Shown in pieces: positions 43,340-44,816 of a stretch of 61,230 nucleotides of DNA (within the stretch, counting starts at the first letter, position 1; each line of letters begins with the position of its first letter). Under the pieces are notes generated by a model. That model did no database searches. It was not told the DNA's origin and was given only the letters and a program-made list of their open reading frames with translations. The DNA lies in contig JAJDZE010000147.1 in NCBI GenBank assembly GCA_022824805.1, positions 1-61,230 on the forward strand, written 5' to 3'. Position numbers and translations under genes: made by a program. The stretch is from Acidimicrobiia bacterium. Lineage in GTDB: Bacteria; Actinomycetota; Acidimicrobiia; Acidimicrobiales; Poriferisodalaceae.

Positions 43340-43711
43340 TCAGGTGACGGTCTGATCTACCTCGTCACGCTCGGCATAGAAGCTCATCAGACCGGCGATC
43401 TCGGCCATCTCGGGGATCGGATCGGGATAGGTCCACACGACGTCGTCGTGACTCTGACCGTTGACTGCTACTGACCAGTAGCTGGCATCGCCCTTCCACG
43501 GTCAATGAGTAGACAGCACAGTCGGGTGCAGCAACTCCATCTTCACGTCGGAAACCGGCAGGTAGTGGCGGGGCGGCAGCCGTCCCTCGGTCAGCACTAC
43601 CGCGGCGGTCGAATCGGCCACAACCACGCCATCCACCCGAACGGTGACCCGTCGTGACTCAGGCGCGATCGCGATCTCGGGCTTGCGATGCTCAGTCGCT
43701 GTCTCGCTCAT
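43340..43711 (-). CDS. DUF427 protein with in-frame UGA (candidate selenoprotein)
   Basis: 123 residues if UGA is read through. The N-terminal part (VRVDGVVVADSTAAVVLTE, LPPRHYLPVSDVKMELL) and C-terminal part (PWKGDASYWSV, DDVVWTYPDPIPEMAEIAG) together make one normal DUF427 domain in a single frame. The TGA at 43502-43504 (codon 70) replaces the conserved Cys of the TxCPWKG motif. A hairpin with GGUC loop follows 25 bases later. GGAGG precedes ATG 43711. Either selenocysteine is inserted or a very recent nonsense mutation truncates the protein at 69 residues. DUF427 biochemistry is poorly known. Confidence 0.75.
43467..43504 (-). other. UGA plus SECIS-like hairpin
   Basis: On the reverse strand TGA (43504-43502) is followed after 19 bases by GCTACT-GGTC-AGTAGC (43482-43467): a perfect 6-bp stem with a GGUC loop whose first G is 26 bases after the UGA. 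The 3' arm uses the codons TCA GTA GCA, three A-ending codons in a row in a gene set dominated by G/C-ending ones. Confidence 0.55.
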
Positions 43712-43816
43712 CTGGGCTCCCCTCCGCCGGCAGCGAGTCGCTGCTGGCCACATCATGGCACCACGCTCACTGACCGTGAGGCGTTCGCGGCCCCAGGCGC
43801 CCTGATCGGGCGCGGA

Positions 43817-44425
43817 TCAGTTGATGATCTTGAGGCCGAGCAGTTCGCACAGATAGGGATGCCGGCTGCGGATGCGGTCCTCCACTGCGTCCATCCTCGT
43901 GTCGTCGTTCAGCGCCTGCAGCAGCAGGAGCTCGAATGCCGGGAGCTCGAGGCTGCCGCCGACCCGCTCGAGGAAGCCGATCACCGCGGCGGCCCCGGAT
44001 CGCTCCTGGAATCGCCGCAGGGCCGCGTCGTCGGTGCGCATGATCTCGCACGAGCTGAAATAGATGATCCGTCCGCCGGCCCGTCCGTTGAGCTCGTCGG
44101 CGAGCTCGGAGAGGGTCACCTTGGTGGCGCCGCTCAGCCAGAGCTCTCCGGGTTTGCCGTGAAATCCGAAGTGCCCGATCTGATAGTCGCGGTAGCGCTG
44201 CTGGGTCCATTTGCGGACGTAGTAGAAGAGCTCGGTCGCGGTGCCGATGTCGCGCCGGATGAACTTCAGGCCGCTGAGCTCGCGGACGGTCTGCAGGAGC
44301 GTGGCCACGCCGAACTGCTGACGGAGATCTGCATCGGAGTCATCGCCTTCAAATGCGAAGACTCCCGTGGCGAGCCGCCGTGACGCCCTTGCGTCCGGAG
44401 CAACCGCTGGCACACCCTTTGCCAT
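43817..44425 (-). CDS. DUF6642-like, caspase-like/CHAT-type protein
   Basis: 202 aa. The core reads IGHFGFHGKPGELWLSG, then LADELNGRAGGRIIYFSSCEIM: a His-Gly after a strand and a Cys after a second strand, the arrangement of the caspase/CHAT catalytic dyad. The N-terminus (VFAFEGDDSDADLRQQFGV) and FIRRDIGTATELFYYVRKWT match what I remember of DUF6642, a family of unknown function. ATG 44425 lies only 14 bases after the 3' end of tRNA-Pro. A protease role is inference. Confidence 0.65.
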   Translation of the reverse strand: MAKGVPAVAPDARASRRLATGVFAFEGDDSDADLRQQFGVATLLQTVRELSGLKFIRRDIGTATELFYYVRKWTQQRYRDYQIGHFGFHGKPGELWLSGATKVTLSELADELNGRAGGRIIYFSSCEIMRTDDAALRRFQERSGAAAVIGFLERVGGSLELPAFELLLLQALNDDTRMDAVEDRIRSRHPYLCELLGLKIIN

Positions 44426-44439
44426 GACAAACCCCACTG

Positions 44440-44517
44440 TGGTCGGGCTGAGAGGATTTGAACCTCCGACCCCTGGTCCCCCAGACCAGTGCGCTAACCA
44501 GACTGCGCCACAGCCCG
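44440..44517 (-). tRNA. tRNA-Pro(GGG)
   Basis: Acceptor CGGGCTG/CAGCCCG, a D-arm with GGTT, anticodon stem CTGGT/ACCAG with loop CTGGGGG (anticodon GGG), T-arm with GGTTCAAATCC, discriminator A and an encoded CCA. All arms pair. Confidence 0.95.
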
Positions 44518-44570
44518 TTCCGCAGGCACGATACCGGCTGGGTTGAATGGACAGTCCAACGACGAGCCGC

Positions 44571-44816
44571 TCAGCCGATGACGCCGGCGAACCACTGAAT
44601 GAGCCACACGACGCCTTCGACCGCACGCCAGCCCAAGTACACGGTCGCCATGATGACGACGAGCCAGAAGTGCCACGGCGCCCCGGCTCGCCGCTGTTGG
44701 GGCTGGTCGGCTTCGCTGCTCCGACGCCTGCCGGTCTGGGCAGAGTCGTCTGGGAGCGGGCGACGATTCTGCCGCTGGGCGTTCGAGGCCGCTGCGCGCC
44801 TGGACAGCGGATTCAC
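44571..44816 (-). CDS. Small single-span membrane protein
   Basis: 81 aa. A basic, Gln/Arg-rich N-terminal 45 residues precede a hydrophobic stretch WHFWLVVIMATVYLGW and a second amphipathic segment VVWLIQWFAGVIG. GTG 44816 overlaps the der stop (GTGA), so it is the last gene of the der transcript. No family recognised. Confidence 0.6.
   Translation of the reverse strand: MNPLSRRAAASNAQRQNRRPLPDDSAQTGRRRSSEADQPQQRRAGAPWHFWLVVIMATVYLGWRAVEGVVWLIQWFAGVIG

Follow-up and report, generated by a model that had tools for sequence, protein, structure and literature searches.

A predicted DUF427 selenoprotein with a SECIS-like element in one genus of Acidimicrobiia

Described systems and the DUF427 locus

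MsrB, a methionine sulfoxide reductase with the beta-tent fold, exists in a Sec form in animals. The same fold is shared by DUF427, a domain that is widespread in bacteria and fungi, and no significant sequence similarity was reported between the two (PMC4287342). Among the recently proposed selenoproteins, DUF523, DUF1858 and DUF3179 are families of unknown function that were also predicted by the combined logic of Cys/Sec pairs and a bacterial SECIS (bSECIS) element; they differ from DUF427 in being different domains (PMC13188914). The bSECIS model of that study consists of an upper stem of 4-16 bp, an apical loop of 3-9 nt with G at its first two positions, a distance of 16-37 nt from the UGA to the apical loop, and a minimum free energy (MFE) of <= -7.5 kcal/mol.

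DUF427 (PF04248) is absent from the most complete inventory that was found, which covers 119 families of prokaryotic selenoproteins (PMC13188914, 2026) and takes in those of Haft and Tolstoy 2025. Additionally, literature searches provided no link of DUF427, PF04248 or COG2343 with selenoproteins, the co-mentions being unrelated; candidates that are supplementary-only or unpublished, for instance from the 2026 groundwater study to which PMC13188914 refers, are outside the scope of these searches. The inventory and the text searches thus agree with the preliminary description of this DNA, according to which DUF427 is not known as a selenoprotein family. No description of the function of DUF427 was found in the retrieved papers either.

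The locus described here is located in a stretch of 61,230 nucleotides from an Acidimicrobiia bacterium, referred to below as the window. The DUF427 gene lies on the minus strand (43711-43340), a strand that the preliminary description had left unstated. Its frame starts with an ATG at 43711, contains an in-frame TGA at 43504-43502, which corresponds to residue 70, and terminates with a TGA at 43342-43340, encoding 123 residues if read through. The features of the locus are as follows.

43340..43711, minus strand: predicted DUF427 (PF04248) selenoprotein gene; profile match across the TGA, orthologue frames intact
43502..43504, minus strand: in-frame TGA, predicted to be read as selenocysteine, at the invariant Cys position of the family
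43467..43482, minus strand: SECIS-like hairpin GCTACT-GGTC-AGTAGC, invariant in 10 species; GGU-type loops also in SelD and formate dehydrogenase of the same genus
43466..43501, minus strand: putative SECIS region, codons +1 to +12 past the TGA, with frozen synonymous sites
43340..43342, minus strand: terminal stop TGA; some orthologues end in TAA or TAG
43714..43730, minus strand: GGAGGGGAG, a purine-rich stretch resembling a ribosome-binding site, upstream of the ATG, proposed from the sequence

The PF04248 profile spans the TGA over its full length (positions 1-93/93), with 116 bits on the DNA containing the one TGA. When Cys was placed at residue 70, the score was 121.9 bits (again 1-93/93), compared with a curated cut-off of 22.1. 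The earlier proposal that the DUF427 domain continues in frame across the TGA is therefore upheld at 116 and 122 bits. No model of NCBIfam matched the protein. As judged from the gene, a complete DUF427 protein is encoded only if the TGA is read through.

In the AlphaFold model of the protein (mean pLDDT 94.1), residue 70 lies where one strand ends and the chain turns into the next. A stop at the TGA would, on this model, leave a product that breaks off midway through the beta-tent fold, after residue 69. Structure comparison with 3djm, a Cys-type DUF427 structure, gave a Z of 19.9 and an rmsd of 1.4 over 113 aligned residues, in line with the published beta-tent assignment (PMC4287342). A more distant likeness was observed to Mis18/yippee (Z 9.5), and the resemblance to RIG-I and cereblon-like domains was weaker. 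The comparison returned no hit to MsrB, a result that does not exclude a likeness. Relative to Cys-type DUF427 (PF04248, 3djm), the protein shows the same fold, a whole-domain profile match and all invariant residues except the Cys, whereas it differs by the predicted Sec at that invariant position and by a SECIS-like hairpin with rare A-ending codons in its gene.

Residue 70 among homologues and the frame beyond the TGA

In the family motif TxCPxKG, residue 70 corresponds to the Cys. This column is invariant in an alignment of 62 sequences, in which the Sec rows were translated as Cys, and the preliminary description, which had placed the TGA at the conserved Cys of TxCPWKG, is confirmed on this point. 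Every Cys-type locus inspected has TGC or TGT at the position, and the product of the gene in the window is devoid of any Cys.

The nine near relatives recovered from 84,980 scanned species genomes all carry the TGA, and a survey of the source family identified it in 10 of the 11 species of the genus itself. The two surveys overlap, with 9 of the 10 distinct sequences common to both. Within the family survey, no in-frame stop was observed at DUF427 in the other genera, and the sibling genera keep Cys. Furthermore, TGA occurred only in this genus among the matches listed in a survey of the order (298 genomes), and a strict THUPWKG DNA pattern, searched for Sec forms outside the genus in 396 genomes of the phylum, returned only the window's own match. 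In the eleventh assembly of the genus (G268), the whole 4-kb neighbourhood, including der, gives only fragments of doubtful similarity. Since the neighbouring der and the entire region are gone together with DUF427, this case most likely represents a missing region of the assembly and not a Cys form.

The exchange of Cys and UGA, for which an alignment of homologues had been suggested earlier, is therefore present, with TGA in ten species of the genus and TGC or TGT in more distant relatives. The close relatives all combine TGA with an identical hairpin, the opposite of the TGC/TGT codons and unconserved hairpin that would have spoken against the proposal. In the tree, all Sec forms are grouped in one clade (support 100/95), and its sister comprises Cys orthologues of the same family (fork 92/87). 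The best reading of these sequences is that the putative Sec form arose once, by a Cys-to-Sec replacement within one Sec-decoding acidimicrobial genus.

The frame after the TGA is free of indels across the ten species, whose pairwise protein identity is 78-96%, and in 9 of the 10 it closes with its own stop at codon 54 after the TGA. Variable columns after the SECIS region are distributed over the three codon positions as 10/7/25 (third-position excess p=4e-4), compared with 21/20/21 beyond the stop; the sequence downstream of the TGA is therefore under coding constraint. These observations bear on the possibility that the TGA is a nonsense mutation by which a Cys gene is decaying, or an assembly error. 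The data are metagenome-assembled genomes, in which errors of this kind may be suspected, but the same TGA is found in all ten species, the codons that follow it are under purifying selection, and synonymous sites are frozen. Because the downstream frame is conserved, we exclude a pseudogene or sequencing error for practical purposes and consider this explanation very improbable.

In one relative (L022:5414-5513), the terminal stop of DUF427 is lost and the frame runs on for 33 codons.

In other bacterial lineages, UGA is known to have been reassigned throughout the genome, for example to Trp, Gly or Cys. For this genome the probability of such a reassignment is negligible, and it is excluded because TGA serves as a stop in the same window: four neighbouring genes terminate with TGA. 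Additionally, the terminal stop of DUF427 is TGA, TAA or TAG among the relatives.

The SECIS-like hairpin and the Sec machinery

The hairpin GCUACU-GGUC-AGUAGC contains six Watson-Crick pairs and a 4-nt loop. The perfect 6-bp stem with its GGUC loop was found at 43467-43482 as announced in the preliminary description, and the distance from the TGA to the loop is exactly 25 nt, a spacing placed there within the range usual for bacterial SECIS elements. Stem (6 bp), loop length (4 nt), loop sequence (GGUC) and spacing all agree with the bSECIS model, in which the latter ranges from 16 to 37 nt (PMC13188914). The hairpin sequence is found once in the whole window and is identical in 10 of 10 species. 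No covariation was seen in the hairpin across the ten species, because the element is invariant.

Selection on RNA structure had been suggested from the A-ending codons of the 3' arm (TCA GTA GCA). These codons are indeed atypical, representing 2.6% of the Ser, 1.3% of the Val and 15% of the Ala codons in the neighbouring genes. The suggestion is strengthened by the frozen synonymous sites: in the 12 codons after the TGA, only one of ten amino-acid-invariant degenerate codons varies, whereas in the rest of the gene 41 of 57 do (Fisher p=3.6e-4). Furthermore, when synonymous codons were randomised, 0.14% of trials contained a 6-bp Watson-Crick stem capped by GGU, and 0.005% reproduced the hairpin exactly. 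The encoded residues SYWS dictate in part the sequence of the 5' arm and of some of the loop, and chance hairpins were observed in 14 of 99 Cys homologues.

The MFE is -5.8 to -7.3 kcal/mol for the bare hairpin and -13.4 to -14.9 kcal/mol for the 47-48 nt element, a value that depends on the stretch taken. Support for the hairpin based on energy was considered and rejected, as the 47-nt stretch is not more stable than its shuffles (z = -0.69). With a fold energy that is unremarkable in this comparison, the case for a SECIS rests on conservation and not on stability.

The genome encodes the components of Sec decoding that the preliminary description had proposed to look for. A tRNA-Sec (66 bits; ARAGORN SeC, anticodon tca), SelB (268 bits) and SelD (340 bits) were identified, and a SelA-like gene adjoins selB; SelA was called from this position and from its sequence, without a profile search. 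The absence of the machinery, which would have weighed against Sec decoding, is thus not observed. Across the genus, tRNA-Sec is present in 11 of 11 genomes, SelD with an in-frame TGA in 11 of 11, and formate dehydrogenase with an in-frame TGA in 10 of 11. The host's own SelD and formate dehydrogenase each carry an in-frame UGA.

These two genes provide the closest comparison for the DUF427 element. In both, as in DUF427, a stem comes after the in-frame TGA and carries an apical loop of the GGU type, which is GGUCU in formate dehydrogenase and GGUUC, GGUCU or GGUCC in SelD (GGUYN, Y = C or U). By the same count, the distance from UGA to loop is 18 nt in formate dehydrogenase and 32 nt in SelD, compared with 25 nt in DUF427. 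In contrast to DUF427, both belong to already known selenoprotein families, and their proteins are unrelated to it. The GGU-type apical motif common to the three genes is presumably read by the SelB of these organisms. SelB also scored over the cut-off in sibling genera of the family, where DUF427 retains its Cys, so the proposed replacement would have occurred inside a lineage that was already decoding Sec.

Plain readthrough of the UGA by a near-cognate tRNA (e.g. tRNA-Trp), stimulated by the hairpin, would yield a short and an extended protein without selenium. The C directly after the UGA and the stem-loop that follows are compatible with such a process, but it leaves the position of the UGA at the exact invariant Cys unexplained, and the truncated product would end in the middle of the beta-tent fold. 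The complete Sec machinery in the genome and the match of the loop motif to two known selenoprotein genes of the same genus also argue against readthrough, which we regard as unlikely. Sec decoding of the UGA, by which the DUF427 gene would encode a selenoprotein, is the preferred interpretation, with an estimated probability of about 0.94. On the basis of the sequences, DUF427 is best read as a genuine new selenoprotein family.

Three further observations were made on the known selenoprotein genes. The selD gene of the genus (L018:1-933, at the start of contig C36 in the host's own genome) has its in-frame TGA within GAGUACK, and two strong stems lie in succession after this TGA, of which the second bears the GGUYN loop. 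For the formate dehydrogenase alpha subunit of the same genome (L187, C45:5400-7262), a separate open frame ~2.5 kb away gives the match to the N-terminal 50 positions of the profile, and the gene appears to be split or rearranged. In the formate dehydrogenase of one species (L186, G315:C285:8532-10538), a TAG is located besides the TGA within the match.

Neighbourhood, proposed mechanism and significance

The gene order Der/tRNA-Pro/DUF427/FAD reductase/RNR is kept in 10 of 10 species. Der and tRNA-Pro are located upstream of DUF427, and a convergent FAD/NAD(P)H reductase with Reductase_C, encoded on the opposite strand, is followed by a class II RNR. At the Cys orthologues of sibling genera, the Der, tRNA-Pro, reductase and RNR neighbours were not found within about 1.5 kb. 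A function for DUF427 based on an operon was considered and dropped for these two reasons, the opposite strand of the reductase and the lack of these neighbours at the Cys orthologues, and no functional link is claimed. A DUF6642 gene (43817-44626, minus strand) lies between tRNA-Pro and DUF427 in the window and in two relatives (L020 and L021). In the other seven species it is absent or represented only by tRNA-overlapping fragments, which suggests an insertion beside the tRNA.

Given a UGA at the Cys site, coding constraint on the codons beyond it, a conserved element and the Sec machinery in the genome, we infer Sec insertion, SelB binding and a redox function as follows. SelB carrying Sec-tRNA(Sec) would recognise the hairpin 25 nt past the UGA, and selenocysteine would be inserted at residue 70 without termination. 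Sec70 would take the place of the invariant Cys at the turn between two beta-tent strands, where it is probably a more reactive nucleophile or redox residue within a one-Sec mechanism. Given that the product contains no Cys, a catalytic cycle, if there is one, would use a single Sec together with an external reductant.

A redox role of residue 70 seems fairly likely. With a somewhat smaller lean in its favour, DUF427 as a whole may be a family of redox or thiol-chemistry enzymes in which the single invariant Cys is catalytic. The Sec form would then be a catalytic upgrade in one acidimicrobial genus, built on a beta-tent and not on the usual thioredoxin-like scaffold, with one Sec and no resolving Cys.

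A gene caller for which UGA is always a stop would end this gene, and likewise its orthologues, at residue 69. At the predicted level, DUF427 enlarges the prokaryotic selenoproteome in Actinomycetota by one family. When Sec takes the place of Cys in nature, this is strong circumstantial evidence for a reactive, usually redox-active, residue. The replacement would therefore single out a residue for mutation and a chemistry for assays in the whole DUF427 family, and, as no description of the function of this family was found, the finding gains further value by indicating its likely active residue.
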